Assembly (NCBI RefSeq): GCF_002197815.1
Contig: NZ_NIUB01000001.1
Span: forward strand, 124,001 to 188,000
DNA length: 64,000 nucleotides
Direction: 5' to 3'
Origin: Pseudomonas oleovorans subsp. oleovorans
GTDB lineage: Bacteria; Pseudomonadota; Gammaproteobacteria; Pseudomonadales; Pseudomonadaceae
The translations under genes were made by a program, and so were the position numbers. Shown here piece by piece: positions 470 to 17,756 of this stretch. Under the pieces are notes generated by a model. The model was not told the origin of the DNA and did no database searches. It worked only from the letters and a program-made list of their open reading frames with translations. How positions within the stretch are numbered: position 1 is the stretch's first letter; every line of letters starts with the position of its first letter.

Positions 470-554
470 GATGATCGATCCGATAACTTTTGTAAGTTGA
501 TGATTTGCAAAGAAAAAATTATTCTTTGTGCGTTTTGGTATGTATTTTGATGAA

Positions 555-568
555 GGATTTTTGACAGC
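555..568 (+). promoter_or_regulatory. Candidate -24/-12 (sigma54) promoter for pchA
   Basis: A scan of every GG between 360 and 711 gave one GG-N10-GC arrangement, at 555-556 and 567-568. The flanks match the TGGCAC-N5-TTGCA consensus poorly, so the call rests on the invariant dinucleotides plus the presence of a divergent sigma54-type regulator. Transcription from here would leave a leader of about 130 nt. Confidence 0.33.
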
Positions 569-606
569 TACAACAAAGCGCTAGTGGGATGCGTACGCCA
601 TTCTAA

Positions 607-2187
<1,581 letters not shown>

Positions 2188-2238
2188 GTTGACGGCTTAT
2201 CTAACCGTCAACCCACTTTATAGAAATTGGAGTAAGAG

Positions 2239-2580: not shown

Positions 2581-2590
2581 GGAGCCTGGC

Positions 2591-3277
2591 ATGACTATCA
2601 ATCGTCGTTTCCTGCTCAAGGGCATGGCCCTGAGCGGTCTCGCCGGCCTGGCCATGGCGGGTCCGGTGCGCGCGCTGGCTGGCCAGAGCTCGGCGCCGAG
2701 CGCTGCCGCAGCGGCACGACCGGTGCTGGCGCTGGTCAGCGCGGGCGCGGCCGAGTCGGTGTTCCTGCGCGGCGCCCAGGCGGCGGCCGGTTCGCAGCTG
2801 CAGGTCCAGCGTTTTGATCAGGATCTGGATCGCCTGCTGAGCTTTGAGCGCCAGCTGCGCAGTGGCCAGCCGCTGCGGGTGATTGGCCTTCTGGATGACG
2901 CCACGGCCACCCTGGTACTGGACATGGCCCGCAGCGCTGGTGCCCGCGTGCAGTGGCTCGGCCAGCACAACACCGTGGCGGGCGTGACCCAGCATCGTTT
3001 GCTCAACACCGAGGTGGCTGAGGGCTGTACGCGTCAGATCAGCCGTCAGCTGCATGCCTGTGGCGCCGGCTTCCATATCGCCGAAGAGCGCCAGGGCAGT
3101 CTGGCCTCACCACGCCAGTTGAGCGCGCCGGCTCGCGGTGGCGAGCATGCCGCCGAGTGGGCGTCCGCCATCGGTTATCAGTTGGCTTCGCTGGGTGGGC
3201 GACCGGCCAAGCCGGCACCGGCTCCGGCCAGTACTGTCCTGAGCGGCAGTTTCGTTTCTTTTTCGATCGAGGCCTGA
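2591..3277 (+). CDS. pchX: PchX, exported protein of unknown function in the p-cresol operon
   Basis: This 228-aa protein occupies the same position, between the two structural genes of p-cresol methylhydroxylase, as pchX in P. putida. Residues 4-24 look like a twin-arginine leader: NRRFLLKG followed by a hydrophobic, alanine/glycine-rich stretch and a likely cleavage near ALA. The mature part has an Ala/Pro-rich start and end around a small alpha/beta core, with no catalytic motif that I recognise. The folded FAD subunit must reach the periplasm and appears to have no leader of its own, so a role in escort or maturation of PchF is a hypothesis only. The start is AGGAG-spaced and 10 bp after pchC. 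Confidence 0.82.
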   Translation: MTINRRFLLKGMALSGLAGLAMAGPVRALAGQSSAPSAAAAARPVLALVSAGAAESVFLRGAQAAAGSQLQVQRFDQDLDRLLSFERQLRSGQPLRVIGLLDDATATLVLDMARSAGARVQWLGQHNTVAGVTQHRLLNTEVAEGCTRQISRQLHACGAGFHIAEERQGSLASPRQLSAPARGGEHAAEWASAIGYQLASLGGRPAKPAPAPASTVLSGSFVSFSIEA

Positions 3278-3290
3278 AGGAGTCTGATCA

Positions 3291-4856
3291 ATGTCCGAAC
3301 AAAAGAATGCTGTGCTGCCCAAAGGGGTTGTGCAGGAAGAATTCAACAAGGCGGTTGCCAAGTTTCGTGCCTTGCTGGGTGAAGAGAATGTCCTGATCCA
3401 ATCCGATCAGTTGGTGCCCTACAACAAGATCATGATGTCGGTCGAGAATGCGGCCCACGCACCCTCGGCCGCCCTCACCGCGACCACCGTGGAGCAGGTC
3501 CAGGGTGTGGTGAAGATCTGCAACGAGCACAAGATTCCGGTGTGGACCATCTCCACCGGGCGTAACTTCGGTTACGGCTCCGCCGCGCCGGTGGAGCGCG
3601 GTCAGGTCATTCTCGACCTGAAGAAGATGAACAAGATCATCAAGATCGACCCGGAAATGTGCTACGCCCTGGTCGAGCCGGGTGTCACCTTCGGTCAGCT
3701 GTACAACCACATCCAGGAAAACAACCTGCCGGTGATGCTGTCGTTCTCGGCGCCTTCGGCGATTGCCGGCCCGCTGGGCAACACCATGGACCGTGGCGTG
3801 GGCTACACCCCCTACGGCGAGCACTTCATGATGCAGTGCGGCATGGAAGTGGTGCTGGCCAACGGTGACGTCTATCGCACCGGCATGGGCGGTGTGAAGG
3901 GCAGCAACACCTGGCAGATCTTCAAGTGGGGCTACGGCCCGACCCTGGACGGCATGTTCACCCAGGCCAACTACGGCATCTGCACCAAGATGGGCTTCTG
4001 GCTGATGCCCAAGCCGCCGGTGTTCAAGCCCTTCGAAGTGATCTTCGAGGACGAAGCGGACATCGTCGAGATCGTCGATGCGCTGCGTCCGCTGCGCATG
4101 AGCAACACCATCCCCAACTCGGTGGTGATCGCCAGCACCCTGTGGGAAGCCGGCAGTGCCCACCTGACCCGCGCCCAGTACACCACCGAGCCGGGCCACA
4201 CCCCGGACAGCGTGATCAAGCAGATGCAGAAGGACACCGGCATGGGTGCCTGGAACCTCTACGCTGCGCTGTACGGCACCCAGGAGCAGGTCGACGTCAA
4301 CTGGAAGATCGTCACCGACACTTTCAAGAAGCTCGGCAAGGGTCGCATCGTCACCCAGGAAGAGGCGGGCAATACCCAGCCGTTCAAGTACCGCGCCGAA
4401 CTGATGTCCGGCGTGCCGAACCTGCAGGAATTTGGTCTGTACAACTGGCGTGGGGGCGGTGGCTCCATGTGGTTCGCGCCGGTGAGCGAGGCCCGTGGCA
4501 GCGAGTGCAAGAAACAGGCGGCCATGGCCAAGCGCGTTCTGCACAAGTACGGCCTGGACTATGTGGCCGAGTTCATTGTGGCGCCGCGCGACATGCACCA
4601 CGTGATCGATGTGCTGTACGACCGTACCAGCGAAGAAGAAACCAAGCGCGCCGACGCCTGCTTCAACGAACTGCTGGATGAGTTCGAGAAGGAAGGCTAC
4701 GCGGTATATCGCGTGAACACCCGCTTCCAGGAGCGTGTGGCGCAAAGCTATGGCCCGGTCAAGCGCAAGCTCGAACATGCCATCAAGCGTGCGGTGGACC
4801 CGAACAACATTCTCGCTCCGGGACGCTCCGGCATCGATCTCAATAACGATTTCTGA
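3291..4856 (+). CDS. pchF: 4-cresol methylhydroxylase flavoprotein subunit PchF
   Basis: The protein dehydrogenates p-cresol to a quinone methide, which is hydrated to 4-hydroxybenzyl alcohol and then oxidised to 4-hydroxybenzaldehyde. It belongs to the VAO/PCMH family, at 521 aa the length of the P. putida enzyme. The residues known there fall at the same numbers: Tyr384 (covalent 8-alpha-O-tyrosyl FAD link, in FGLYNWR), Tyr95, Tyr473, Arg474 and Arg512 (in APGRSG). The N-terminal half is the FAD_binding_4 fold (TGRNFGYGSAAP). No signal peptide is visible although the enzyme works in the periplasm with PchC. The pch operon ends in the hairpin immediately downstream. Confidence is very high. 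Confidence 0.97.
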   Translation: MSEQKNAVLPKGVVQEEFNKAVAKFRALLGEENVLIQSDQLVPYNKIMMSVENAAHAPSAALTATTVEQVQGVVKICNEHKIPVWTISTGRNFGYGSAAPVERGQVILDLKKMNKIIKIDPEMCYALVEPGVTFGQLYNHIQENNLPVMLSFSAPSAIAGPLGNTMDRGVGYTPYGEHFMMQCGMEVVLANGDVYRTGMGGVKGSNTWQIFKWGYGPTLDGMFTQANYGICTKMGFWLMPKPPVFKPFEVIFEDEADIVEIVDALRPLRMSNTIPNSVVIASTLWEAGSAHLTRAQYTTEPGHTPDSVIKQMQKDTGMGAWNLYAALYGTQEQVDVNWKIVTDTFKKLGKGRIVTQEEAGNTQPFKYRAELMSGVPNLQEFGLYNWRGGGGSMWFAPVSEARGSECKKQAAMAKRVLHKYGLDYVAEFIVAPRDMHHVIDVLYDRTSEEETKRADACFNELLDEFEKEGYAVYRVNTRFQERVAQSYGPVKRKLEHAIKRAVDPNNILAPGRSGIDLNNDF

Positions 4857-4888
4857 TGCTGGCGGCAGTTTTCCTGCCGGTTAACGTT

Positions 4889-4921
4889 AAAAACGCCCAA
4901 GCCCATGGCTTGGGCGTTTTT
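4889..4921 (+). terminator. Rho-independent terminator of the pch operon
   Basis: A 15-bp perfect stem (4889-4903 with 4907-4921), a 3-nt loop, and flanking A and T runs follow the pchF stop by 32 bp. The A/T symmetry would also stop transcription from the other side. Confidence 0.9.
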
Positions 4922-4953
4922 CGAGGCGGAGAGAGGCGAACAAAACGCTATAG

Positions 4954-4969
4954 ATAACCTATCGGTTAT
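4954..4969. promoter_or_regulatory. Candidate PcaQ operator upstream of pcaHG
   Basis: ATAACC at 4954-4959 and GGTTAT at 4964-4969 are separated by 4 bp. This agrees with the ATAACC-N4-GGTTAA dyad described for the LysR-type activator PcaQ of rhizobia at 11 of 12 positions. It sits about 100 bp before the pcaH start and just after the pch terminator, where an activator site for the pca operon is expected. No pcaQ gene is in the window. Confidence 0.6.
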
Positions 4970-4987
4970 GGAAGGCGTGCAAGGTTT

Positions 4988-5024
4988 CAATTTCCCCGCG
5001 TCGGAAATTGGCCGAGACTCGGCT
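4988..5024. promoter_or_regulatory. Two adjacent dyads in the pcaH leader
   Basis: CAATTTCC (4988-4995) and GGAAATTG (5003-5010) form an 8-bp inverted repeat with a 7-bp spacer. GCCGA and TCGGC form a second dyad at about 5012-5024. They lie between the PcaQ-like site and the pcaH ribosome binding site (AGGAG at 5060-5064). They could be a second operator or leader RNA hairpins; neither is shown. Confidence 0.4.
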
Positions 5025-5070
5025 CCGTTCGATTCAACGAGCCTCCGTCACCACATAACAGGAGATCGAC

Positions 5071-5790
5071 ATGTCCGACGCTCAAGATCGTCGTTTTGTC
5101 ATGCGTGACCGCACCTGGCACCCCAAAGCCCTGACCCCGGACTACAAGACCTCGGTCGGCCGCTCCCCGCGCCAGGCACTGGTCAGCATTCCGCAGTCCA
5201 TTTCCGAGACCAGTGGTCCGGACTTCTCGCACCTGAAAATGGGCCAGCACGACAACGATCTGCTGCTCAACTTCAATACCGGTGCGCTGCCGATCGGTGA
5301 GCGCATCATCGTTCACGGTCGCGTGGTGGATCAGTTCGGCAAGCCGATCCCGCATACCCTGGTGGAAATGTGGCAAGCCAACGCCGGCGGCCGCTACCGT
5401 CACAAGAACGACCGCTACCTGGCTCCCCTCGACCCCAACTTCGGCGGTGTGGGTCGTGCGCTGACCGACAGCGAAGGTCGTTACCATTTCCGCACCATCA
5501 AGCCGGGTCCGTATCCGTGGCGTAACAACCCGAACGACTGGCGTCCGGCGCATATCCACTTCTCCATCAGTGGCCCGGCGATCTGCACCAAGTTGATCAC
5601 CCAGCTGTACTTCGAAGGTGATCCGCTGATTCCGCACTGCCCGATCGTCAAGGCGGTGAACGACCCGGAAGCCGTGCAGACCATGATTGCGCGTCTGGAT
5701 CTGACCGCTAACAACCCCATGGATTGCCTGGCGTACCGTTTCGACATCGTCCTGCGCGGTCAGCGCAAAACCTGGTTTGAGAACGTCTGA
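5071..5790 (+). CDS. pcaH: Protocatechuate 3,4-dioxygenase beta subunit PcaH
   Basis: This is the iron-binding subunit of intradiol ring cleavage, converting protocatechuate plus O2 to 3-carboxy-cis,cis-muconate. At 239 aa it is the usual length. All four Fe(III) ligands of the P. putida enzyme are present: Tyr109 (GGRY), Tyr148 (PGPYPW), His161 and His163 (PAHIHF), with the active-site Arg158 just before. The ATG at 5071 is preceded by AGGAG. It begins the operon pcaH-pcaG-zapE-like-pcaB-pcaC, in which genes are separated by 10 bp or overlap. It shares with pcaG the intradiol fold but is distinguished by carrying the iron ligands. Confidence 0.97.
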
Positions 5791-5800
5791 GGAGGCGACC

Positions 5801-6412
5801 ATGACTGAGATCAATCTGCTCCGCGAGACCACCTCCCAGACTGCCGGTCCTTACGTGCACATCGGCCTGGCGCTGGCCGCTGCCGGTAACCCGACCCGCG
5901 AACAGGAAATCTGGAACCAGCTGGCCAAACCCGAGGCCCCCGGTGAGCACATTACCGTGATCGGCCGCGTGTTCGACGGCAACGGTCACCTGGTGCGCGA
6001 CTCCTTCCTGGAAATCTGGCAAGCCAACCACGAAGGCGTGTACGACGAGGATTACAACCTCGACAAGCCGTTCAACGGGTTCGGCCGCACCGCCACCACC
6101 TTCGATGCTGGTAGCGAATGGACCATCGAAACGGTCAAGCCGGGCGTGGTCAAGGCGGCCGATGGCCGCCCGCAGGCGCCGCACATCAACGTGGCGCTGT
6201 TTGCCCGCGGGATCAACATCCAGCTGGCGACCCGCATCTACTTTGATGATGAAGCCGAGGCCAACGCGGCCGATCCGGTGCTCAACCTGATCGAACAGCC
6301 CGAGCGCCGTCAGACGCTGATCGCCACCCGCGAAGAGCAGGCTGGCAAGGTGGTATACCGCTTCGACATCCGCATCCAGGGCGAAAACGAGACAGTCTTT
6401 TTTGACTTCTGA
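5801..6412 (+). CDS. pcaG: Protocatechuate 3,4-dioxygenase alpha subunit PcaG
   Basis: This is the non-catalytic-iron partner of PcaH in the (alpha-beta)n dioxygenase; alpha subunits line part of the substrate pocket. At 203 aa it has the usual length, with the intradiol core (EIWQANHEGVY, NGFGRTATTF, APHINVALFARGI). The iron-ligand pattern of the beta subunit is absent, as expected. The start chosen is ATG 5801, directly after GAGGAGGCGACC; an in-frame ATG 24 bp upstream would overlap pcaH and has no ribosome binding site. The 3' end overlaps the next gene by 11 bp, implying translational coupling. Confidence 0.96.
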   Translation: MTEINLLRETTSQTAGPYVHIGLALAAAGNPTREQEIWNQLAKPEAPGEHITVIGRVFDGNGHLVRDSFLEIWQANHEGVYDEDYNLDKPFNGFGRTATTFDAGSEWTIETVKPGVVKAADGRPQAPHINVALFARGINIQLATRIYFDDEAEANAADPVLNLIEQPERRQTLIATREEQAGKVVYRFDIRIQGENETVFFDF

Positions 6413-7487
6413 GGCATCGCCGGGGCAGCTGCTCCGGCACGAGTACGAAACGCGTCTCGCGGCCCGGGGTTACCGGGCCGATGCGGCGCAACGGGCGGCC
6501 GTTGACCTGTTGGGTCAATGGCTGTCGGCGTTTCTGGGGCGACGCCGTTCATTGCTGCGTCGTCCCGCCGCCGGGGTTTACCTGTGGGGCGGTGTGGGAC
6601 GTGGCAAGAGCTTCGTCATGGATGCGTTGTACGCCGCCGCACCGCTGGCGGAAAAACGCCGGGTGCATTTCCACGCCTTTCTGGCCGAGCTGCAAATCCT
6701 TGTTCGCGCCTACGCCGGTCAGCCCGATCCGTTGGTGCTGGCTGCGCGGGAGCTGGCAGGCAGCACCCGCCTGTTGTGCTTCGATGAGTTCCACGTGCAC
6801 GACATTGGCGACGCCATGCTCCTGGGACGTCTGGTCAAGGTGCTGGTGGACGAGGGGGTTGGCGTGGTCTGCACGTCCAATTACCCACCGTCCAAGCTGT
6901 GCCCCAATCCCCTGTACCGCGAGCGATTCCTGCCCACGATCAAGCTGATCGACGCACGTTTCGAGGTATTGGAACTGGACGGTGGCCAGGATTACCGCCG
7001 CGAATCCACCCGTGACTGGGGACAGTTCTGCTGGCCCATGGCCGACGACGCAGACTGGGACTCTACCCCTTTGGCACCGCCCGCACAGGCCGAGCGTGAT
7101 GTGGTTATCGAGGTCAATCGACGTCCCCTGCATCTGCACGCCCGCGATGGTCGCCGTGCCTGGCTGGACTTCGCTGGGCTGTGCCGTGGTCCGCGTTCCA
7201 GTGCGGACTACCTGTGGCTGTGCGAGCACTTTGCCGAGCTGACCGTAGGCACCGTGCCCCAGCTGGACAGCGAAGGTATCGACGTGCAACAGCGCTTTTT
7301 GAATTTCATCGACATCGCCTACGACAGCGGCGTGCGCCTGCGCCTCGGCGGTGTCGACCGGCCGGAGGTGCTGTGCCGCGCCGGTAGTCATACTGATTTT
7401 TCCCGAACCCATAGTCGCTTGCAGCAGTTGCAAGCGCTCGACGTGGCCAATGCCGCGTCGCCTTGTTCTCAGGAGGCTGAATCGTGA
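6402..7487 (+). CDS. zapE: ZapE/AFG1-family ATPase inside the pca operon
   Basis: This AAA-type P-loop ATPase of 361 aa belongs to the ZapE/AFG1 (LACE1) family. Walker A is GGVGRGKS near residue 65 and Walker B is LLCFDEFHVHD near residue 126; the family motif VVCTSNYPP follows. Relatives in E. coli act at the division ring and, in mitochondria, in quality control of membrane complexes. This copy overlaps pcaG by 11 bp at its start and pcaB by 4 bp at its end, so it is co-translated with the protocatechuate genes. Cell-division ZapE is normally elsewhere in Pseudomonas, so this is probably a specialised second copy; a chaperone role for the pathway is speculation. Confidence 0.85.
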   Translation: MTSEASPGQLLRHEYETRLAARGYRADAAQRAAVDLLGQWLSAFLGRRRSLLRRPAAGVYLWGGVGRGKSFVMDALYAAAPLAEKRRVHFHAFLAELQILVRAYAGQPDPLVLAARELAGSTRLLCFDEFHVHDIGDAMLLGRLVKVLVDEGVGVVCTSNYPPSKLCPNPLYRERFLPTIKLIDARFEVLELDGGQDYRRESTRDWGQFCWPMADDADWDSTPLAPPAQAERDVVIEVNRRPLHLHARDGRRAWLDFAGLCRGPRSSADYLWLCEHFAELTVGTVPQLDSEGIDVQQRFLNFIDIAYDSGVRLRLGGVDRPEVLCRAGSHTDFSRTHSRLQQLQALDVANAASPCSQEAES

Positions 7488-8848
7488 GTGTCAGCAACCA
7501 GCTGTTCGATGCCTATTTCACCCAGGCAGCCATGCGTGACGTGTTTTCCGACCGGGGTCGCCTGCAGGGCATGCTCGACTTCGAGGCCGCACTGGCCCGC
7601 GCCGAAGCGGCGGTGGGACTGATCCCGGCGCGTGCTGTGCCGGCCATCGAGGCGGCCTGCCAGGCGCAGCTGTACGATCCGGTGGCGCTGGCCCAGGCGA
7701 TTGCCACGGCCGGCAACTCGGCGATTCCGCTGGTCAAGGCCCTGGGCCGGCAGATCGCCCAGAGCGATGCCGAAGCCGAGCGTTACGTGCATTTGGGCGC
7801 CACCAGCCAGGACGCCATGGACACCGGCCTGGTGCTGCAACTGCGCGCTGCGCTGGCGCTGATCGAAGCGGATCTGTCGGCCTTGGCCGACGCCTTGGCG
7901 GTGCAGGCGGAAAAACACGCCAGCACCGTATTGCCGGGGCGTACCTGGCTGCAGCACGCCACCCCGGTAACCCTCGGCATGAAGCTTGCCGGTACGCTCG
8001 ATGCGTTGAATCGGCACCGTCAGCGGCTGAGCGAACTCAAGCCTCGCCTGCTGTGCCTGCAATTCGGCGGTGCCGCCGGCACCTTGGCCGCACTGGGTGA
8101 GCAGGCGTTGCCGGTGTCGGTCGCGCTGGCCAGCGAACTGCAACTGACCCTGCCGGAGCAGCCCTGGCATACCCAGCGGGATCGTATTGTCGAAGTCGGC
8201 AGCGTCCTGGGTCTGATCGCCGGCACGCTGGGCAAGTTTGGTCGCGACCTGTCGCTGCTGATGCAAACCGATGTGGGCGAGGCGTTCGAGCCGTCCGCAC
8301 CGGGCAAGGGTGGTTCGTCCACCATGCCGCACAAGCGCAACCCGGTGAGCGCGGCGGTGCTGATCGGCGCGGCAACCCGCGTGCCGGGGCTGGTCTCCAC
8401 CCTGTTCGCCGCGATGCCCCAGGAGCACGAACGCAGCCTGGGCTTGTGGCACGCCGAATGGGAAACCTTGCCGGAGATCTGCTGCCTGGTCTCGGGCGCC
8501 CTCGCGCAGGCCCTGGTGGTCGTGCCCGGGCTGGAAGTGGACGCCGAGCGCATGCGCGCCAACCTGGAGCTGACCCAGGGCCTGGTGTTGGCGGAAGCGG
8601 TGAGCATCGCCCTGGCGCAACGCATTGGCCGTGACGCGTCCCATCACCTGGTTGAACAGTGCTGCCGCCGCGCCGTGGCCGAGAAGCGTCATCTGCGCGC
8701 GGTGCTGGGCGATGACGAACAGGTCAGCGCGCAACTCACGGCAGAAGAGCTGGATCATTTGCTCGATCCGGCCCATTACCTTGGCTTGGCACAAACGTGG
8801 GTCACCCGCGTCGTGGCCGAGCATCGCCGACTCGGCGCCCTTGATTAA
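7484..8848 (+). CDS. pcaB: 3-carboxy-cis,cis-muconate cycloisomerase PcaB
   Basis: The product lactonises 3-carboxy-cis,cis-muconate to 4-carboxymuconolactone. It is a member of the fumarase/aspartase superfamily, 454 aa, with the family signature GSSTMPHKRNP (about residues 280-290) and the HLGATSQD stretch near residue 105. The start is GTG at 7484, overlapping the TGA of the upstream ATPase gene as GTGA, with AGGAGG at 7471-7476; this makes the start secure. It sits in the order of the pathway, followed by pcaC after 32 bp. Adenylosuccinate lyase is the paralogous alternative, ruled out by context and by GATSQDxMDT. Confidence 0.95.
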   Translation: MSVSNQLFDAYFTQAAMRDVFSDRGRLQGMLDFEAALARAEAAVGLIPARAVPAIEAACQAQLYDPVALAQAIATAGNSAIPLVKALGRQIAQSDAEAERYVHLGATSQDAMDTGLVLQLRAALALIEADLSALADALAVQAEKHASTVLPGRTWLQHATPVTLGMKLAGTLDALNRHRQRLSELKPRLLCLQFGGAAGTLAALGEQALPVSVALASELQLTLPEQPWHTQRDRIVEVGSVLGLIAGTLGKFGRDLSLLMQTDVGEAFEPSAPGKGGSSTMPHKRNPVSAAVLIGAATRVPGLVSTLFAAMPQEHERSLGLWHAEWETLPEICCLVSGALAQALVVVPGLEVDAERMRANLELTQGLVLAEAVSIALAQRIGRDASHHLVEQCCRRAVAEKRHLRAVLGDDEQVSAQLTAEELDHLLDPAHYLGLAQTWVTRVVAEHRRLGALD

Positions 8849-8880
8849 CCCAAGCCTCTAGCCTTCACAGGAGCCAGACA

Positions 8881-9282
8881 ATGGACGAGAAACAGCGTTA
8901 CGAAGCCGGCATGCAGGTACGCCGCGCGGTACTGGGCGATGCCCACGTGGACCGCAGCCTGGAAACCCTGACGCCCTTCACCGAAGAGTTCCAGGAAATG
9001 ATCACCCGCCACGCCTGGGGCGACATCTGGACCCGCCCCGGCCTGCCGCGCCATACCCGCAGCCTGATCACCATCGCCATGCTGATCGGCATGAACCGCG
9101 AAGGCGAGCTCAAGCTGCACCTCAAGGCGGCGAAGAACAACGGCGTGACCCGTGACGAGATCAAGGAAGTGCTGATGCAGTCGGCGATCTATTGCGGCAT
9201 TCCGGCCGCCAACCACACCTTCCACCTGGCCCAGGAGCTGTGGGACGAGGTGGGTGTCGAGTCGCTGCAAGAGCAAAAGTAA
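8881..9282 (+). CDS. pcaC: 4-carboxymuconolactone decarboxylase PcaC
   Basis: The product decarboxylates 4-carboxymuconolactone to 3-oxoadipate enol-lactone, the last step of the branch found in this window. It is 133 aa, the standard size for the single-domain enzyme, an AhpD-like fold with the conserved WGDIWTRPGL and ending EVGVESLQEQ. A ribosome binding site (AGGAG) precedes the ATG. It is the final gene of the operon and is followed by a strong terminator. The next enzyme, enol-lactone hydrolase PcaD, is neither fused to this protein nor encoded nearby. Confidence 0.95.
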   Translation: MDEKQRYEAGMQVRRAVLGDAHVDRSLETLTPFTEEFQEMITRHAWGDIWTRPGLPRHTRSLITIAMLIGMNREGELKLHLKAAKNNGVTRDEIKEVLMQSAIYCGIPAANHTFHLAQELWDEVGVESLQEQK

Positions 9283-9313
9283 GCCGAGCGCATACGCCCG
9301 CTTCTGCATCCAC

Positions 9314-9342
9314 GAAAAAAACGGCCAAGGGCCGTTTTTTTC
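9314..9342 (+). terminator. Terminator of the pca operon
   Basis: ACGGCC (9321-9326), a 3-nt loop and GGCCGT (9330-9335) are flanked by six A and at least six T. It closes the pca operon 31 bp after the pcaC stop. Confidence 0.9.
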
Positions 9343-9479
9343 GTTTTCGGCGCTGCCACGGCCGCAGGTGAACGCGCGAGCCGACGTGGGGGTCCTAGCG
9401 GTGAAGGCCCTTGATGCGCAGGTGCTGGGGCTGGAACGGCGTGATCCGTTCTCATGGCGTGGCATAGCGAGGCTTCCTG

Positions 9480-10385
9480 ATGAAACTCGGCATGATCGGT
9501 TTGGGGCGCATGGGCGCCAACATGGCGCAGCGTCTGCTGCGAGGCGGCCACCAGGTAGTGGGGCTGGACCCCAAGCCCGAGGCGCGCAGCGCGCTGGAGC
9601 AGCAAGGCGGCGAGAGCGCCGAATCGCTGCAGTCACTGGTGGCCAAGCTGCCAACTCCTCGGCTGCTGTGGCTGATGGTGCCGGCCGGTGACGTGACTGA
9701 CAGCACTCTGACCAACCTGCTGCCACTGCTGGGCGCCGGCGACACCCTGATCGATGGCGGCAACGCCAATTACCGCGACACCCTGCGTCGCGCCGAGACG
9801 GCGGCCGAGCAGGGCATCGATTACCTCGACTGCGGCACCAGCGGCGGCATCTGGGGATTGGCCGAGGGCTACAGCCTGATGGTCGGCGGCGCGCAGGCGA
9901 CGGTCGTACGCCTGCGACCGATCTTCGAAACGCTGGCGCCGAGCAAGGAGCGGGGCTGGGGACGGGTCGGGCCGGTGGGTGCCGGACATTTCTGCAAGAT
10001 GGTGCATAACGGCATCGAATACGGCTTGATGCAGGCCTATGCCGAGGGTTTCTCCATCCTGCGGCATAAAGAGGCATTTGATTTCGATCTCGTGCAGGTT
10101 GCCGACATCTGGCGCGAGGGCAGCGTGGTGCGTTCCTGGCTGCTGGACCTGTGCAGCGATGCGCTGCAGAAGAATCCGCAGATGACCGGCATCGCGCCTT
10201 ACGTGGCTGATTCCGGCGAAGGCCGCTGGACCGTGGCGGAAGCCATCGAGCTGAATGTGCCGGCACCGGTGATCACCCTGGCGTTGCTGCAACGGCTGCG
10301 CTCGCGGGACGCCGAATCCTATGCCGACCGGCTGCTGGCGGCGTTGCGCAATGAGTTCGGCGGGCATGCGATCAAAAAAGAGTGA
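9480..10385 (+). CDS. gnd: 6-phosphogluconate dehydrogenase, decarboxylating (short NAD-type)
   Basis: The product converts 6-phosphogluconate to ribulose 5-phosphate and CO2. It is the short 301-aa GndA/YqeC class rather than the 470-aa E. coli type. The N-terminal Rossmann motif is GLGRMGANMAQ; the second beta strand ends in LDPK, an acidic residue that in this family favours NAD+ over NADP+. The catalytic lysine/asparagine motif is GHFCKMVHNGIEYG, and GTSGGIWG is the substrate loop. The start is the ATG at 9480. It faces tkt convergently. P. aeruginosa-like pseudomonads generally lack this enzyme, so its presence beside pgi, pgm and tkt fits an acquired sugar-phosphate cluster. Confidence 0.9.
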   Translation: MKLGMIGLGRMGANMAQRLLRGGHQVVGLDPKPEARSALEQQGGESAESLQSLVAKLPTPRLLWLMVPAGDVTDSTLTNLLPLLGAGDTLIDGGNANYRDTLRRAETAAEQGIDYLDCGTSGGIWGLAEGYSLMVGGAQATVVRLRPIFETLAPSKERGWGRVGPVGAGHFCKMVHNGIEYGLMQAYAEGFSILRHKEAFDFDLVQVADIWREGSVVRSWLLDLCSDALQKNPQMTGIAPYVADSGEGRWTVAEAIELNVPAPVITLALLQRLRSRDAESYADRLLAALRNEFGGHAIKKE

Positions 10386-10426
10386 GGGGCGGCCGCCGAC
10401 GGCTGGGAACCTGTGCAGATGTCACC

Positions 10427-12475
10427 CTAGGGCCCCAGCAGCCTTTTCGCCCGCGCACAGACGTTATCCACGGTGAACCCATACTCCCGTTGCAGCACGG
10501 GCCCGGGCGCGGAGGCGCCGAAGCGTTCGACACCGAGCATGGCGCCCTGGGAGCCGGTGTAGCGCTCCCAGCCCTGGGACACGCCGAGTTCCACTGCCAG
10601 GCGCGCCTCCACCGTGGGCGGCAGCACCGCGTCGCGCTCGACCTGGGGTAGGGCCTCGAACAGCTCCCAGCTGGGCATCGACACGCAGCGCACGGCGATT
10701 CCTTCAGCCTGCAAACGCTCGGCGGCCTCGAGGATAAGCGCGACTTCCGAGCCGCTGGCGATCAGGATCAACCGGGGATTGCCCCCCGCTGGCTCGCTCA
10801 GTACATAGGCGCCGTGGCGCACGCCTTCGGCGCTGGCATAGCGGCTGCGGTCCAGGGTGGGCAGTTCCTGGCGGCTGAGGATCAGCGCCACCGGGCGGTC
10901 GCGGGTCTCCAGGGCGATGCGCCAGGCCACGGCGGTTTCGTTGGCATCGGCGGGGCGGATCACCGTGAGGTTGGGCACCGCCCGCAGGTTGGCCAGTTGC
11001 TCCACCGGCTGGTGAGTCGGGCCGTCCTCGCCGAGGGCCAGGCTGTCGTGGGTGAATACCTGTATCACCTGCACGCCCATCAGCGCCGCCAGGCGCAGCG
11101 GGGGGCACATGTAGTCGGAAAAGATCAGGAAAGTGGCGCCGAACGGAATGAACCCGCCATGGGCGGCCAGACCGTTGCCGATAGCCCCCATGGCGTGTTC
11201 GCGCACGCCGAAATGCAGGTTGCGCCCGGCATGGCTCCAGCCGCCACCGCTGGAGCCCTGTTCGTCCTGGTCTTGGGTGAGCGCTGAATTGAAATCGCCC
11301 TGGCCCTTCAAGACGGTTTTGGTGGAGGGGTTGAGGTCTGCCGAGCCGCCGAACAGTGCCGGCAAGCGAGGGGCGATGGCGTTCATGAGCCGGCCGCTGG
11401 CCTCGCGGCTGGCCAGGCCCTTGGCGTCGGCGGGAAACACCGGGATGTCCGCATCCCAGCCGGACGGCAATTCACCGTCGAGGCGCTGTTCCAGTTCTTC
11501 GGCCAGTTCCGGGAAAGCCTGGCGATAGTTGACCAGGCGCTGGTTCCAGGCCGCCTCGTCATCGGCGCCGCGTTGTCCGGCCAGGTGAAACTGCGCCTGC
11601 ACCTCGGGCGGGATGAGGAACTCCGGGTCCAGCGGCCAGCCGAGTTGCTGCTTGGTCTGGCGCACATTGTCCGCTCCCAGCGGCGAGCCGTGAGCCTTAT
11701 AGGAGTCCTGCAACGGCGAGCCAAAGCCGATATGGCTGCGCACCAGGATCAGCGAGGGGCGGGTGTCCTGCCCATGGGCCGCGTGCAAGGCGGCGTCGAG
11801 GGCATGCAGATCGTTACCGTCCTCCACCACCTGGGTATGCCAGCCGTAGGCGGCGAAGCGCGCGGCGCGATCCTCGGAAAAACAGATGTCGGTGCCGGCG
11901 GCCAGGGTGACTTCGTTGTCGTCGTACAGGCAGCACAGCTTGCCCAGACGCAGATGGCCGGCCAGCGAGGCGGCCTCGCTGGCCACACCTTCCATCAGGT
12001 CGCCGTCGCTGACCAGGGCATAGGTGCGGTGATCGATCAGGCTATGGCCGGGGCGGTTGTAGCGCGCCGCCAGGTGCGCCTCGCCGATGGCCATGCCCAC
12101 CGCGTTGGCCAGGCCCTGGCCGAGCGGCCCGGTGGTGGTTTCCACCCCGGGCGTGTGGCCGCGCTCGGGATGTCCGGGCGCCTTGCTACCCCACTGACGA
12201 AAGCGCTTGAGTTCGTCCAGCGGCAGGTCGTAACCGGTCAGGTGCAGCAGGCTGTAGAGCAGCGCCGAGCCATGCCCGGCGGAGAGCACGAAACGGTCGC
12301 GCCCCGGCCACTGCGGGTTGGCGGGGTTGAACCTGAGCCAGCGCATCCACAGCACATAGGCCATGGGCGCGGCGCCCAGCGGCAGGCCGGGGTGGCCGCT
12401 GTTGGCGTGTTGCACCATGTCCACCGAGAGAAACCGTAGGGTATTGATGCAGCGTTGATCGAGATCGGAAGCCAT
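10427..12475 (-). CDS. tkt: Transketolase
   Basis: This thiamine-diphosphate enzyme moves two-carbon units between ketose and aldose phosphates in the pentose phosphate pathway. It is 682 aa, slightly longer than the usual 660-665, and complete: HANSGHPG at the N terminus, [15 protein letters not shown], the ThDP motif [14 protein letters not shown], and [17 protein letters not shown] in the pyrimidine domain. GGAG precedes the ATG by 8 bp. It is the last gene of the run pgi-pgm-tkt, 5 bp after pgm. It is probably a second transketolase beside the housekeeping copy, because it sits in an accessory segment; that is an inference. Confidence 0.95.
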
Positions 12476-12480
12476 GGCGG

Positions 12481-14130
12481 TTACTCCGCAGGTGAATGGA
12501 GCGCGGTATCGACGATCTGGTGGGCCTCGCGCAGGATGGCCTGCAGATGGGACTGATCCTTGAAGCTTTCCGCATAGATCTTGTAGATCGCCTCGGTGCC
12601 GGAGGGGCGCGCGGCGAACCAGCCGCTGGCGGCGATCACCTTGATGCCGCCGATAGGTGCCTGATTGCCGGGCGCGTGGTCGAGTACGGCGAGAATCGGC
12701 TCGCCGGCCAGCTGGCTGATGGTCACTTGCGCGGGCGAGAGCCGGCTCAGGCGCGCCTTCTGCTCGGGCGTGGCAGCGGCGTCGAGGCGATCGTTCAGGG
12801 GTTCGCCGAGTTCCGCCTCCAGATCGCGATACAGCTCGCCGGGGTCGCGGCCGCAGCGGGCGGTCATTTCCGCCGCCAGCAGCGCGGGCACCAGGCCGTC
12901 CTTGTCGGTGGTCCAGACCGTGCCATCGCGGCGCAGGCAGGTGGCGCCGGCGCTTTCCTCGCCGGCAAAACCCAGGCTGCCATCATGCAGGCCGTTGACG
13001 AACCACTTGAACCCCACCGGCACTTCGTACAGCCGCCGGCCGAGGCGCTGCGCCACGCGGTCGATGAGTGCGCTGCTGACCAGGGTCTTGCCAATGGCGG
13101 CATCGGGGCGCCACTGGGGCCGATGCCGAAACAGATAGTCGATCAGCACCGCCAGGTAATGATTCGATGGCAGCAGCCCGCTGCTGCGGGTGACGATACC
13201 GTGGCGGTCGTGGTCGGTGTCACAGGCGAAGGCGACATCAAACCCATCCTTGAGGCCGATCAGCCGCTGCATGGCATAAGGCGAGGACGGGGCCATGCGG
13301 ATCTGTCCGTCCCAGTCCAGGGACATCATGGCGAAGGTCGGATCCACCGCTTCACTGACCACGTGCAGGTCGAGGCCGTAGCGTTCGGCCAGTGGCGCCC
13401 AGTAATGCACGCCGGCACCGCCGAGCGGGTCGACGCCCAGGTGCAGGCCGGCGGCGCGGATTACCGTGAAGTCCACCACCTGCTCCAGATCCTCGATATA
13501 GGCGTGCAGGAAATCGTGTTCCCGCGCGGCGTTGCGCGCCTGCGCGAGGGGCAAGCGGCGCACGCCGCGCAAGGCGTTTTCCAGCAGGGTGTTGGCGCGC
13601 GCCTCGATACGGTCGGTAATGGCTTTATCCGCCGGCCCGCCGTGGGGCGGGTTGTACTTGATGCCGCCATCGGCCGGCGGGTTGTGCGAGGGGGTGATGA
13701 CGATGCCATCGGCCAGCCCGGCGTGGCGACCCCGGTTGTAGGTGAGGATCGCGTGGGAAATGGTCGGCGTCGGGGTGAATTCGCCGTCTTTGGCGATCAG
13801 CGTGCTCACGCCGTTGCCGGCCAGCACTTCCAGGGTGCTTTCCAGGGCTGGTTGCGACAGCGCGTGGGTGTCGATGCCGAGGTACAGCGGGCCGTCGATG
13901 CCTTGAGCCTGACGGTAGTCGCAGATCGCCTGGGCGATAGCCAGCAGGTGCCATTCGTTGAAGCTGCGGGTCAGCGAGCTGCCGCGATGGCCGGAGGTGC
14001 CAAAGGCCACCCGTTGCGCGGGGATGTACGGGTCGGGTCGCCAGTCGGTATAGGCGGCCAGCAAGGCGGGCACATCGACCAGCGAGGAGGACGGGGCGGG
14101 TTGACCGGCCAGCGGGTTGATGCGGTTCAC
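12481..14130 (-). CDS. pgm: Phosphoglucomutase (alpha-D-glucose phosphate-specific)
   Basis: The product interconverts glucose 1-phosphate and glucose 6-phosphate. It is 549 aa, like E. coli Pgm. The phosphoserine loop is TPSHNP near residue 146, the metal-binding loop is DTDHDRHG, and the sugar loop is GEESAGA. The phosphate-binding RPSGTE lies near the C terminus. The start is GTG at 14130, overlapping the pgi stop as GTGA, so translation is coupled. The first 25 or so residues ([20 protein letters not shown]) are the usual N-terminal tail of this subclass. With pgi it would link glucose 1-phosphate (glycogen or trehalose turnover) to fructose 6-phosphate. Confidence 0.95.
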
Positions 14131-15158
14131 GGGCGCACCCCCTTGTGCTGGCGGTAGCGGCGGATCAGCGTGTTGCTGGAACTGTCATGGCTCAACTCGC
14201 CCGGCTCAGGTTGGGCGATTTCCGTCGCGATCCGTTTGGCCAGGGCCTTGCCCAGCTCGACGCCCCATTGGTCGAAGGGATCGATCTGCCAGATCATGCC
14301 CTGTACGAACACGCTGTGTTCATACAGGGCCACCAGCGTACCCAGCGTGAAGGGGTCGAGGCGTTCGGCCAGCAGCGTGCTACTGGGACGGTTGCCTTCA
14401 CAGGCGCGGTGCGGCGCCAGCGTCGGCGACGCGCCCTGGGCGCGCCATTCTTCCTCGCGCTTGCCAAAGGCCAGCGCCTCGCCCTGGGCGATCAGGTTGG
14501 CGATCAGCAGGTCATGCTGGGTGCCCAGGGGGTTGAGAGACTGACAAAAGCCGATGAAATCGCAGGCGATCAGCCGGGTGCCCTGATGGATCAGCTGATA
14601 GAACGAATGCTGGCCGTTAGTGCCCGGCTCGCCCCAGTAGATCGGTGAGGTGTCGTAATCGACCCGCGCACCGCCCAGGGTTACGTGCTTGCCGTTGCTT
14701 TCCATGGTCAGCTGCTGCAGGTAGGCGGGAAAGCGTTTCAGGTACTGCTCATAGGGCAGCACGGCAACGGCGGTGATGCCGAGGAAATTGACATTCCAGA
14801 CCCCTAGCAGGCCCATCAATACCGGCAGGTTCTGCTCCAGCGAGGTATGGCGGAAATGCTCGTCCATGGCGTGCAGGCCGGCCAGCAGGGCGCGGAAGTG
14901 CTCGGCGCCGATGGCCAGCATGGTGGACAGGCCGATGGCCGAATCCATCGAGTAACGCCCGCCCACCCAGTCCCAGAAGACGAACATATGCTGCGGATCA
15001 ATGCCGAAGCGGGCGACTTCCTCGGGGTGACTGGAAACCGCCACGAAATGCTGGGCAACCGCCGCCTCATCGCCGAGCGCCTGCACGCACCAGGCTCGCG
15101 CGGCATGGGCGTTGGCCAGGGTTTCCTGGGTGGTGAAGGTTTTCGAGCAAACGATGAA
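14127..15158 (-). pseudogene. pgi: Glucose-6-phosphate isomerase, 5'-truncated by the insertion element
   Basis: Reading leftwards from the element boundary, the frame opens at [14 protein letters not shown], equivalent to about residue 205 of the 549-residue enzyme, and runs 343 codons to a normal stop. The C-terminal two thirds are intact, including [19 protein letters not shown] and the final [10 protein letters not shown] lysine segment. Everything before the F is replaced by the terminal repeat of the ISL3 element. An internal GTG at 15086 could give a 319-residue fragment, but without the first sugar-isomerase half it should be inactive. It overlaps pgm by 4 bp. The missing 5' part is not found on the other side of the element. 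Confidence 0.93.
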
Positions 15159-15172
15159 GGGTATTCGGGAAA
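15159..15172 (+). repeat. Left terminal inverted repeat of the ISL3 element
   Basis: GGGTATTCGGGAAA, identical to the reverse complement of 17743-17756. It directly abuts the truncated pgi frame. Confidence 0.9.
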
Positions 15173-15217
15173 GGTTGTTGATTGAGCCTCACCCGTAGGG
15201 GGCTACAAATCGTTTTT

Positions 15218-15240
15218 GCATACGGGAAATCTTGTTGACA
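15218..15240 (+). repeat. Subterminal repeat of the left end
   Basis: GCATACGGGAAATCTTGTTG resembles the terminal repeat followed by its inner extension (GTATTCGGGAAAGGTTGTTG) and runs into the TTGACA of the candidate promoter. It is likely a second transposase binding site, so transposase or another end-binding protein could affect this promoter. Confidence 0.5.
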
Positions 15241-15263
15241 CACCGCCTTGGTCGGGATACCTT
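15235..15263 (+). promoter_or_regulatory. Candidate sigma70 promoter of the element
   Basis: TTGACA at 15235-15240 is followed after exactly 17 bp by TACCTT at 15258-15263. The -35 is perfect and the -10 is weak (3 of 6). It points into the C4-like leader and the antirepressor/transposase genes. Confidence 0.5.
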
Positions 15264-15291
15264 CCTCCCGTCGCTGTAAGTCCAGCGGCCT

Positions 15292-15305
15292 GGGATTGGC
15301 GTCCC
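15292..15305 (+). other. Hairpin 1 with TTGGCG loop
   Basis: GGGA (15292-15295) and TCCC (15302-15305) close a six-base loop TTGGCG. The same loop occurs in a second hairpin at 15452-15469, and CGCCAA at 15428-15433 is its exact complement. Confidence 0.5.
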
Positions 15306-15323
15306 GGATTCAGAGGCGGACAC

Positions 15324-15349
15324 AACCGCCGTTTTCGAGCGGTTTTTTT
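15324..15349 (+). terminator. Terminator-like hairpin in the element leader
   Basis: AACCGC (15324-15329) and GCGGTT (15339-15344) are followed by a run of T to 15349. It could end a short leader transcript from the promoter at 15235 before the antirepressor gene, so it is a candidate attenuation point. Confidence 0.65.
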
Positions 15350-15452
15350 GTGCCCGCGGCATGGCTGCACCCGTTATGGGCGGGCCGTGCGTGGGGGTCG
15401 AAAGACCCGCCGGCCCTCTGACCGGTACGCCAACCCGCACGGTTCCGCTCAC
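15350..15452 (+). ncRNA. C4-like antisense RNA upstream of the antirepressor-like gene
   Basis: The RNA would fold as an outer stem CCGTGCG/CGCACGG (15385-15391 with 15436-15442) enclosing GGGTC-GAAA-GACCC (15395-15408) and CCGG/CCGG (15410-15413 with 15422-15425), leaving ACGCCAA single-stranded at 15427-15433. This layout, the GCCGG...CTGACCGGTACGCCAACC string and the place just before an ant-like gene are those of C4 RNA, which in phages P1 and P7 silences the antirepressor by pairing with its translation start region. Here ACGCCAA can pair with TTGGCGT at 15458-15464. The assignment is by recollection of the motif; a covariance search would settle it. Confidence 0.6.
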
Positions 15453-15469
15453 CCAAATTGGCGTTTGGG
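15452..15469 (+). other. Hairpin 2 with TTGGCG loop (probable C4 target)
   Basis: CCCAAA (15452-15457) and TTTGGG (15464-15469) close the loop TTGGCG, identical to hairpin 1. It lies 33 bp before the antirepressor-like start codon, where a C4-type RNA would act on translation initiation. Confidence 0.5.
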
Positions 15470-15501
15470 CGCGGAGGTCAAGCCTTCAGAGGGAAACTGC
15501 C

Positions 15502-16365
15502 ATGCAATCGCTCACCTTCAACAACACCCAATTCGACATCGTTGATCGCAACGGCAATCCGTGGGTAAGGGCAAACCAGATCGGTTTGGCCTTGGAGTAC
15601 AAGAACCCAGAGCTGTCGATTGCCAAGCTCTACCGCAGCAACGCCGAAGAGTTCAGCGACAAGATGACCGCCCTGATCGAGATGCCCACCAAAGGCGGCG
15701 TCCAGCAGGTTCGCATCTTCTCCCTGCGCGGCGCGCATCTGCTGGCTATGTTCGCCCGTACCAAGGTTGCCAAAGAGTTCCGTCACTGGGTGCTCGATGT
15801 CCTGGAAGGTGTGGCTGAGGTTCCTTCCCCCGCCAAAGAGAAGCGCGCCCCCAAGGCCCTGCCCAACGGCCGCTCCATCGACCAGCAGGACGCCATCAAG
15901 GCGCTGGTGAAAGCCCGCGTCGAGGCGCTGCCGAAGGAGAAGCAGGCCAAGGCCGCAGTGACCTGCTGGAGCGCCCTCAAGTCCAAGTTCGGCTGCTCGT
16001 ACAAGAAGATCGAGTCCGACCAGTTCGCAGAGGCTGTCGGCCTGGTGGCGCGCATCGAGCTGGAGGGCGAGTGGCTGCCGAAGGCGAAAGAGGACGAGTT
16101 CGTGCTCGGCTTCTACGAAGCTCAGGAGGTCTGCCACCTGGTGCATCACGCCATCTGGTGTGTCTACCGCTGGGACAGCGGTATCGCCGCCGGCGTGAAG
16201 GCGATGAACTACCCCGTCTGGCTCAGCGCCTTCGAGCACTTCCAGGAGGCGAGCCGCTCCGCGCGCAGGATCGAGCGCCTGATGCCGGAGTTGATTGGCT
16301 ACTTCCGCCAGAAGAATGGCGGCCTGCTCCCGGAGCAGTGCGCAGCAAAAGGAATCGTCGCATGA
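15502..16365 (+). CDS. BRO-N/ORF6C phage antirepressor-like protein
   Basis: This 287-aa protein has a BRO-N DNA-binding domain (about residues 1-110, with GNPWVRANQIGLALEY and FSLRGAHLLAMFART) and an ORF6C-like domain (about residues 125-200, with KARVEALPKEKQAKAA and WSALKSKFGCSYKKI). Both are typical of phage antirepressors. I start it at ATG 15502, just after GAGGGAAACTGCC, because the BRO-N domain begins there; an open frame reaching back to 15361 would run through the structured leader. The stop overlaps the transposase start as ATGA. It is probably a regulator of the element or of resident prophages; it is not a known part of the ISL3 transposition machinery. Confidence 0.87.
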   Translation: MQSLTFNNTQFDIVDRNGNPWVRANQIGLALEYKNPELSIAKLYRSNAEEFSDKMTALIEMPTKGGVQQVRIFSLRGAHLLAMFARTKVAKEFRHWVLDVLEGVAEVPSPAKEKRAPKALPNGRSIDQQDAIKALVKARVEALPKEKQAKAAVTCWSALKSKFGCSYKKIESDQFAEAVGLVARIELEGEWLPKAKEDEFVLGFYEAQEVCHLVHHAIWCVYRWDSGIAAGVKAMNYPVWLSAFEHFQEASRSARRIERLMPELIGYFRQKNGGLLPEQCAAKGIVA

Positions 16366-17678
16366 CTCCCCCAAACAGCCTACTGCACCCCTTGAAGGCC
16401 CAAGTCCTGGGCTTTCAAGAGGATGAGCACGACTACCACTTCCAGGTGGAGTACCCAGACCCCGACGCCTGCCACACCTGCGGTACGGTCGGCCAGCTGG
16501 TGCGCTTCGGCAAGAAGCAGGTGAAGTTCCGCGACGTGCCGATGCACGGCAAGCGCGTGTCGCTGTGGGTGATCCGGCGCCGGTTCCAGTGCAAGTCATG
16601 CAACAGCACGTTCACACCGCCCATCTACGAGATGGCGGAGGATCACCGGATGACCCGGCGATGCTACGACTACATCATCAAGCGCTCGCTGAGCGGCACC
16701 AACGCCAAGGTTGCCCAGGACATCGGGTTCGATGAGTCGGTAGTGCGGGCTGTGATCAAGTCGCACTGCGACATGAAGGCCATCGGCTACAGGCCAACCC
16801 TACCGCGCGTTCTCGGCATCGACGAGCTGTACCTGAACCGGCAGTTCCGCTGTGTGCTGACCGACATCGAGCGGGGCACCATCCTCGACATTCTGGAGTC
16901 GCGGCAGTATCCGGTGCTTTACAACTACCTGGCCAACATGCAAGGCCGGGAGAACGTCCAGATCGTCTGCCAGGACATGTGGAAGCCCTACCGCGACGTG
17001 GCCTCGCAGTTGTTCCCCAAGGCCGCCATCGTGGTGGATCGGTTCCACATCCAGCGCATGGCCAACGAGGCGATGGAGACGCTGCGCAAGGGGCTCAAGA
17101 AGGAGCTGACCCAGCACCAGCGCCGACAGCTCAAGGGCGACCGGAAGATGATGCTGATGCGGCGCCGTGACCTGAACCCGATGCAGGAGCTGATCATCCA
17201 TACCTGGTTGGATCAGTTCCCCGAGCTGGGCATGGCCTACAAGCTCAAGGAGGCGTTCTTCGACATCTGGGAGGCCACAACCGAGGCTGAGGCAAGGGCG
17301 CGCTACCAGGAGTGGCTGAACGCGATTCCAGAGGGGCACAAGTCCCACTGGAAGCCGCTGATTACCTCGATGACGAACTGGGAGCGGGAGATCTTCTCGT
17401 ACTTCGGCCCAGCCCAGCGCAACACCAACGCCTTCACCGAGTCGATCAACCGGCAGATGCGCGACCTGAACAGGGACGCCAGGGGCATGTCGTTCGAGAT
17501 GTTCCGGGCCAAGACGCTGTTCAGCCTGGAGCACAAGGTGAGCATGCCCAAGCCGAAGCGGGAGTCACCTTTCGTTGGCTACGCACGCCCCATGGAGCGG
17601 GTCATGTACAGCATCCCGATCTACGACCACGGCGTTTCCATCGAGGCCGTTCTCAAGGCCATCCAGGGCGCCCAGTAG
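16362..17678 (+). CDS. tnpA: ISL3-family transposase
   Basis: This DDE transposase of 438 aa opens with the zf-ISL3 zinc finger (CHTCG near residue 34 and CKSCN near residue 76) and a helix-turn-helix stretch around residues 100-140. Catalytic acidic residues are the D of VLGIDELY, the D of VVDRFHIQRMANEA and the E of NAFTESINRQMRDLNR. The start chosen, ATG 16362, overlaps the antirepressor stop by 4 bp; a longer open frame upstream is just the shadow of that gene. The coupling means transposase synthesis should follow translation of the antirepressor. No frameshift or stop is present, so the protein looks functional. Confidence 0.95.
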   Translation: MTPPNSLLHPLKAQVLGFQEDEHDYHFQVEYPDPDACHTCGTVGQLVRFGKKQVKFRDVPMHGKRVSLWVIRRRFQCKSCNSTFTPPIYEMAEDHRMTRRCYDYIIKRSLSGTNAKVAQDIGFDESVVRAVIKSHCDMKAIGYRPTLPRVLGIDELYLNRQFRCVLTDIERGTILDILESRQYPVLYNYLANMQGRENVQIVCQDMWKPYRDVASQLFPKAAIVVDRFHIQRMANEAMETLRKGLKKELTQHQRRQLKGDRKMMLMRRRDLNPMQELIIHTWLDQFPELGMAYKLKEAFFDIWEATTEAEARARYQEWLNAIPEGHKSHWKPLITSMTNWEREIFSYFGPAQRNTNAFTESINRQMRDLNRDARGMSFEMFRAKTLFSLEHKVSMPKPKRESPFVGYARPMERVMYSIPIYDHGVSIEAVLKAIQGAQ

Positions 17679-17713
17679 GGCGTCCATCAACACGACCACC
17701 CATTTCAGCTAGC

Positions 17714-17756
17714 GGTGTTCGGGAAGTCCTCTAACAACAGGATTTCCCGAATACCC
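17714..17756 (-). repeat. Right terminal inverted repeat with opposed subterminal copy
   Basis: The terminal 14 bp (17743-17756) mirror the left end. Just inside, GTGTTCGGGAAGTCC (from 17715) is an imperfect inverted copy, so the right end is itself a palindrome of about 40 bp that can form a hairpin. It may also terminate transcription leaving the element. Confidence 0.75.

Follow-up and report, generated by a model that had tools for sequence, protein, structure and literature searches.

A C4-family phage RNA and an antirepressor-like gene precede the transposase gene of an ISL3-family insertion element in Pseudomonas oleovorans

The window analysed here is a stretch of 64,000 nucleotides from Pseudomonas oleovorans subsp. 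oleovorans (RefSeq assembly GCF_002197815.1, contig NZ_NIUB01000001.1, positions 124,001 to 188,000 of the forward strand). Its positions 15159-17756 form a complete 2598-bp insertion sequence (IS) of the ISL3 family, in which the transposase gene lies behind a phage-type structured RNA and an antirepressor-like gene. All coordinates below are those of the window and all features lie on its + strand. The terminal inverted repeats are found at 15159-15186 (left) and 17729-17756 (right); described as perfect in a first-pass annotation made from the sequence, they are identical at 14/14 of the outermost positions but only 82% identical over 28 nt. The element carries two genes. The first, ant (15502-16365, 287 aa), encodes an antirepressor-like protein with a Bro-N domain (3.5e-12) and a match to the PHROG family ‘anti-repressor Ant’ (1.3e-45), while the ORF6C domain that had also been proposed stays below its cut-off. 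The ant frame is open further upstream as well, to an ATG at 15361, running through the C4 RNA described below; the start was placed at 15502 because a ribosome-binding site precedes it. The second gene, tnpA (16362-17678, 438 aa), encodes a DDE transposase with the DDE_Tnp_ISL3 (3.7e-60) and Zn_ribbon_ISL3 (1.5e-9) domains, which identify it as an ISL3 transposase. Its start overlaps the ant stop by 4 nt (ATGA), in agreement with the predicted pair of ant and a coupled ISL3 transposase gene, although coupling itself can only be presumed from the overlap. The structure model of Ant (mean predicted local distance difference test, pLDDT, of 63) was too poor for use, a Foldseek search of the PDB gave 0 matches at E <= 0.001, and the single solved relative retrieved by sequence (E 0.6) is not meaningful.

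The leader ahead of ant contains two structured RNA matches, which are the sole two in the entire window when Rfam is scanned at gathering score. The upstream one (15270-15349) belongs to the isrK family (RF01394), here a leader of the seqA/a1b1 kind with its terminator, and passes the cut-off marginally (51.2 bits, gathering score 50). Within it are found a b1 site TTGGCGT (15296-15302), an a1 site TCAGAGG (15310-15316) and an intrinsic-terminator-like hairpin with a T run (15325-15349). The predicted terminator is present in so far as the hairpin exists (15328-15343), but one such hairpin was found against 0.8 expected in shuffles, and it is therefore weak taken alone. The downstream match (15372-15456) is a C4 antisense RNA (RF01695); the covariance model places it at 58.2 bits, with a gathering score of 45 and an E value of 1.2e-8, and the C4-like RNA of the first-pass annotation is hence borne out. 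The c4-a1b1 family (RF03163) remained below its cut-off (36.9 vs 46.7 bits) in the copy on plasmid pRA2, at the position equivalent to 15257-15310. In the predicted fold of 15372-15456, an 8-nt hairpin loop is exactly CCCTCTGA (a', 15414-15421), the exact complement of TCAGAGGG (a2, 15486-15493), which is the Shine-Dalgarno region of ant and the putative target of the loop. The same loop is complementary over 7 nt to the upstream a1 site, and a b' segment ACGCCAA (15427-15433) is complementary both to b1 and to a b2 site TTGGCGT (15458-15464). The succession a1b1 - a'b' - a2b2 is the plan of phage C4 RNAs, with a' and b' complementary to sites at the ant start and further upstream, and the RNA of the window is best read, from its sequence, as a working C4. 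The distance from the C4 end to the ant start is 45 nt, which leaves no icd gene between them as there is in the immI operon of phages P1 and P7. Moreover, C4, ant and tnpA are all read from the same strand, which differs from an opposite-strand antisense RNA such as RNA-OUT of IS10.

Eight elements with distinct leaders were then compared, namely the window element, L006 (phage ON778006), L058 and L059 (viral contigs), L021 (G257, another genome of the host’s genus), L029 (a P. aeruginosa plasmid), L007 (a Klebsiella plasmid) and L155 (E. coli GMM060), along with a ninth from E. coli, L157, which has an L059-type leader. The C4 RNA is found in four of the eight (window, L006, L058, L021), and in the other four (L029, L007, L059, L155) its place is taken by sRNA-Xcc1 (RF02221). 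The order of structured RNA, antirepressor-like gene and transposase gene is kept in all eight and in L157. Among the eight, the regulator gene encodes Bro-N, Rha or KilA-N domains, some with P22_AR_C, and that of L157 is annotated as ORF6N + P22AR. In 9/9 elements it overlaps tnpA by 4 nt or stops at most 14 nt before it. The L157 regulator is annotated in pieces, and we rejected the idea of a broken gene since the frame is open over 297 codons. A one-off chance insertion of the antirepressor gene was likewise discarded, given the relatives with the same order. The two outcomes named beforehand as fatal to the first-pass annotation, namely a leader with neither covariance hit nor conservation and an antirepressor gene confined to this copy, thus both came out the other way.

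The complementarity between RNA and start site follows the elements. Each of the eight RNAs shows a run of 7-8 nt with its own regulator start site (mean 7.75), compared with a mean of 4.96 for mismatched pairs, and among the 40320 possible re-pairings of the eight RNAs and targets the true pairing alone reaches the observed sum. Upstream, at a1, the longest run again involves the loop in 7/8 elements; in L155 it involves another segment. Furthermore, as judged by eye, b' and b1/b2 vary jointly in the C4 elements, the site being TTGGCGT in the window, TTGGCCT in L006 and L058 and TTGGTCT in L021. The evidential weight of this complementarity rests on the set and not on single elements.

Our preferred reading, to which we give a probability of roughly 0.7, is that of an ISL3 element in which a phage immunity operon ends with the transposase gene, the RNA silences ant-tnpA and the operon is open on entry into a new cell. 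We infer silencing from the base pairing, seen together with the gene order and the known relatives. A promoter at the left end would be used to transcribe the leader with the a1b1 site and the terminator, then the C4 RNA and then the ant-tnpA message. A candidate -35 box, TTGACA, was seen there by eye (15235-15240); it is overlapped by an inner, subterminal copy of the terminal repeat (15220-15237, 89% complementary to the right end), and its -10 partner is weak. The a' loop would pair with a2, at the ribosome-binding site of ant, and the b' segment with b2. Such pairing would block translation of ant and, because ant and tnpA overlap, that of tnpA too, and it may also end transcription early. 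As the RNA would be diffusible, one resident copy could silence all copies having the same loop. Conversely, a copy carried by a plasmid or phage into a cell free of that RNA would for a short time be open, make Ant and transposase, and jump. For Ant itself we can offer but a guess, namely an action against a repressor of its own promoter or of a related one. Regarding the role of the module, the first-pass annotation had hesitated between control of the element’s own transposition and the sensing or triggering of resident prophages; base pairing makes control of the transposase operon the most likely, and a part in sensing or triggering prophages is not supported for the RNA, whose loop does not match the four other C4 targets in the host genome.

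Several observations weigh against silencing. The promoter-like site reported earlier stands as a TTGACA seen by eye, but a promoter scan found no site meeting its criteria, and a simple sigma-70 promoter is not recognised. The complementarity in the window alone is modest, as 72 of 2000 shuffled start sites reach 8 nt. For L007, the reported run against the start site falls outside the loop, an equal-length loop run being visible by eye. In addition, the L007 and L155 RNAs may cross-react, since each is complementary over 7 nt to the other’s start site. Complementarity could also have come about by selection in phages and been brought along passively; indeed, since these leaders have relatives in phages, part of the co-variation may date from there. 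What Ant does is the least secure part of the silencing reading. Finally, according to the available part of PMC4825925, a related leader RNA of Salmonella prophage Gifsy-1, IsrK, activates instead of silencing, by turning on anrP translation. If the element followed that model, a short leader RNA would turn translation on in trans, and the isrK-family match of 51.2 bits against 50 is in its favour. That score is barely above the cut-off, however, the C4 match is the better one and has a loop against the ribosome-binding site, and both the C4 and isrK profiles detect relatives of P4 CI and seqA, which are a silencing immunity RNA and its site (PMC10111431, in the part available). Activation of the IsrK kind is therefore, to our mind, the least probable of the explanations weighed here.

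Another explanation is that the element captured a phage module as a passenger, with C4 controlling ant as it does in phages and the downstream transposase not relying on that control. Several kinds of regulator (Bro-N, Rha, KilA-N) do occupy the same place. One element nested in the clade of C4 elements, L057, has other, unrelated genes upstream of its transposase and no Rfam RNA match, so that the RNA is not indispensable, and other small genes are found in a sister clade of about 52% identity. L059 has a frameshift in its regulator gene even though this element has a clean 8-bp target duplication; an intact regulator may hence be dispensable for transposition, unless the gene broke afterwards. 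L057 and L059 also count against silencing. However, neither a gene-free leader nor a separate tnpA promoter was seen, with no wider scan aimed at one, and the close junction of regulator and transposase genes in 9/9 elements implies that silencing of ant should silence tnpA. We consequently regard passenger capture as unlikely.

Cassette exchange was examined by computing identity in alignment steps of 150 columns. For L058 and L021, identity is 86-97% across columns 1351-2772, comprising most of tnpA and the right end, and 87-92% in the first 300 columns, compared with 41-57% across columns 451-1200, the region of the regulator gene. Similarly, L007 and L157 reach 95-100% in columns 1351-2670 and drop to 36-47% in columns 301-750. 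Comparison of L007 over the whole tnpA DNA gives an identity of 98.3% with the GMM060 copy; with the best copy of the L157 genome it is 98.2%. Since transposase DNA of about 98% identity carries different loops and regulator domains, the control module is swapped as a cassette. In a tree of 26 transposases, the C4 elements group together with L057 nested among them, L059 clusters tightly with the E. coli and Klebsiella elements, and L029 stands far apart. The tree includes 17 rows without leader RNA; 14 of these are in scanned loci, some scanned at gathering score only, and none has C4 or sRNA-Xcc1 ahead of the transposase, while L027, L036 and L079 are unscanned. In the sister ISL3 clade (L069-L079, L030-L032) the other small genes adjoin tnpA, and five of the nine proteins tested from this clade and L057 have a PHROG match, nearly all to families of unknown function.

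As for where the module came from, the listed matches of Pseudomonas phages to the element start at its nt 100 or 104, and phage CF23a has a homologous leader followed by an annotated antirepressor. In E. coli, the L007 leader matched 160 records; among the 15 listed, ten match only from query nt 118/119, and one of these ten, ETEC4090, has an antirepressor fragment behind the leader match. As the phage and E. coli matches begin at these points, the IS end and the phage leader probably meet near them. Two E. coli strains (L154 4001-5013 and L156 4001-5102) have the IS left end, an Xcc1 leader and a regulator gene beside prophage-type genes, and neither locus shows an annotated transposase or a right end within 8.4 kb; they are either remnants or stages of cassette exchange. 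As loop and regulator are exchanged together, elements would fall into different immunity groups. We can extend the silencing reading accordingly, as a tentative proposal whose odds we place slightly below even. The RNA would sort ISs into such groups and silence copies of the same group while incomers of another group burst, the groups would be made by cassette exchange with resident phages, and C4 and sRNA-Xcc1 would form one functional class.

This last point was followed in the genus of the host. sRNA-Xcc1 is reportedly integron-encoded and transferred by transposons and plasmids, as the title of a 2011 paper has it. Matches to it were found in 32 of 149 genomes of the genus, at 36 places, and 30 loci (L094-L123) were analysed; many are near-identical with the same loop, and the figures below count loci and not independent events. 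In the 30 loci, a stretch of 6-11 nt in the central loop is complementary to a site downstream, with an ATG 2-12 nt after this site in 29/30, often opening an open reading frame of about 30 codons. All three of the downstream genes tested encode Bro-N. The mean run of a loop with its own downstream region is 7.8 compared with 6.2 for others, which 0/20000 shuffles reach, a count that is not a clean probability because many loci are related and share a loop. In a stricter test that took the first ATG/GTG opening at least 60 codons, 19/30 loci give no target start, and the other 11 have an own mean of 6.8 vs 5.8, reached by 101/20000 shuffles. We propose that sRNA-Xcc1 is a C4-class RNA.

The C4 RNA itself is common, with a match in 138 of 149 genomes of the genus, and the host genome holds six, two in IS copies and four elsewhere in loci that were called prophage-like. 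The a' loop of the IS matches none of the targets of these four, nor do their loops match the IS target. The longest run of the IS RNA against the four downstream regions is 7 nt, through a b-type segment shared with the C20 locus. As the a' loops do not match, RNA cross-talk with the four loci is unlikely, except in part with C20, and prophage cross-talk through the IS RNA was dropped as an explanation. This bears on a further possibility, in which Ant inactivates resident prophage repressors to let the element leave in phage particles. The antirepressor identity of Ant would suit such a role, as would a related copy in the isolated phage ON778006 and four viral-collection contigs that carry the element or its relatives. 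Yet the RNA does not address the other resident C4 loci, there is no known repressor target, and insertion elements are generally common in phage genomes and prophages, and we hold prophage triggering to be very unlikely.

Mobility is shown by target duplications, which are typically of 8 bp in ISL3 elements. Of nine copies inspected together, five have such a duplication, namely L058, L021, L059, L029 and L056, which is this element again, in a viral contig; it is likewise seen at the intact E. coli copies L155 and L157, at L159 and at the ON778006 copy. The copies and relatives therefore move as one unit. The window copy, its sister copy in the host genome, L015 and L057 have none of their own. 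Indeed, the flanks of the window copy, ACGATGAA and CATTAACC, differ, and this is because it forms one end of a composite of about 45 kb. Two direct IS copies bound this 44,975-bp composite (window 1-15158; G000:C1:96782-141756), which sits in a sodium:alanine symporter gene and has the outer repeat CATTAACC on the outer sides of both copies. The ISL3 hallmark of inverted repeats with an 8-bp duplication is hence seen through L056, the relatives and the composite flanks, and not at the window copy alone. By eye, the cargo of the composite includes genes for a 4-cresol dehydrogenase, a protocatechuate dioxygenase and a benzoate dioxygenase-like enzyme, a pobA-like gene and a truncated pgi.

The second full copy of the host genome differs by one base from the window copy, and the same one-base variant is found in Stutzerimonas stutzeri CLN100, in a viral contig and in pRA2. 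On pRA2 (P. alcaligenes) the copy is split by the start of the circular record and was compared as 2230 + 368 bp, giving one difference in 2598; its flanks CAATTTAT and GAGTTTAT differ. Elsewhere, two identical inverted Xcc1-type copies (L007) flank a lysR-type gene beside blaOXA-48 on the Klebsiella plasmid, with flanks that match crosswise only. E. coli GMM060 has 13 places with leader and transposase, and the two copies read (L155 and L159) are identical over 2620 bp at different sites, where they interrupt the frv operon and bcsE. In ON778006, a sewage phage genome (L006, L162), a complete C4-type element spans the record ends with flanks TTAAAACG, and a second ISL3 transposase is present.

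The element is rare in the genomes sampled. A transposase query at E <= 1e-60 matched 8/249 genomes of the genus and the family profile at E <= 1e-140 matched 9/398; in these two samples, the close type was limited to this genome and G257. At E <= 1e-110, 19/293 genomes of the order and 3/369 of the class matched, this genome included, and the matches listed apart from it are 45-47% identical. The L007-type transposase was found over at least 80% of its length in 2/5426 E. coli genomes.

If silencing is confirmed, the use of phage immunity RNAs, which control lysogeny and satellites, would extend to the smallest mobile elements. It would also provide a testable reason for which an IS is quiet in one cell and amplified in another, as in the E. 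coli genome with 13 places. Finally, sRNA-Xcc1, discussed so far mainly for plant virulence in the parts of that literature available to us, would likely have as its basic role that of a C4-like silencer of Bro-type genes.

Among the closest known systems is IS10, whose RNA-OUT is an antisense RNA over the start of the transposase operon that causes multicopy inhibition. The C4 RNA would likewise act over the operon start and give copy-number-dependent silencing, but RNA-OUT is an opposite-strand transcript whereas the RNA here is of phage type and lies on the same strand, in the leader of its own message. The ISPpu12-type ISL3 elements with passenger genes have an ISL3 transposase about 45-47% identical and other genes nearby; those scanned gave no C4 or Xcc1 match, and their upstream gene is of another kind. 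The resemblance to the C4 + ant operon (immI) of P1/P7 consists of a C4-family RNA before an antirepressor gene, an a' loop against the start site and duplicate upstream sites (PMC8201110, in the part available; the P1 mechanism is given in part as general background). In our case, the operon lies between IS ends, ends in an IS transposase gene and goes from C4 to ant with no separate icd. The stretch of P1 taken as positive control has a gene table without c4, icd and ant. P4, with its CI and seqA, and the phage-inducible chromosomal islands also have a C4/isrK-family RNA beside domain-swapping Bro genes that controls their own early operon (PMC10111431, in the part available); they are integrase-based satellites, while the enzyme controlled here would be a DDE transposase. 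The available parts of PMC2996969, PMC12189769 and PMC12444791 discuss sRNA-Xcc1 for virulence and integron cassettes and not for silencing of a transposase operon. In the available part of PMC4230813, the mobile elements of pRA2 are named as IS1633 and Tn5563, with no mention of an RNA module; as the pRA2 copy is one base different, the ISL3 element of the window and of pRA2 is probably IS1633, a name we deduce. The earlier statement that no IS of this design is described thus needs dividing: the element itself is present on a sequenced plasmid, and in the open-licence literature no paper was found that joins an IS with C4 or an antirepressor or that describes its RNA control. Hence, as far as we have seen, the parts of this element are known, while their combination and the exchangeable specificity are new.

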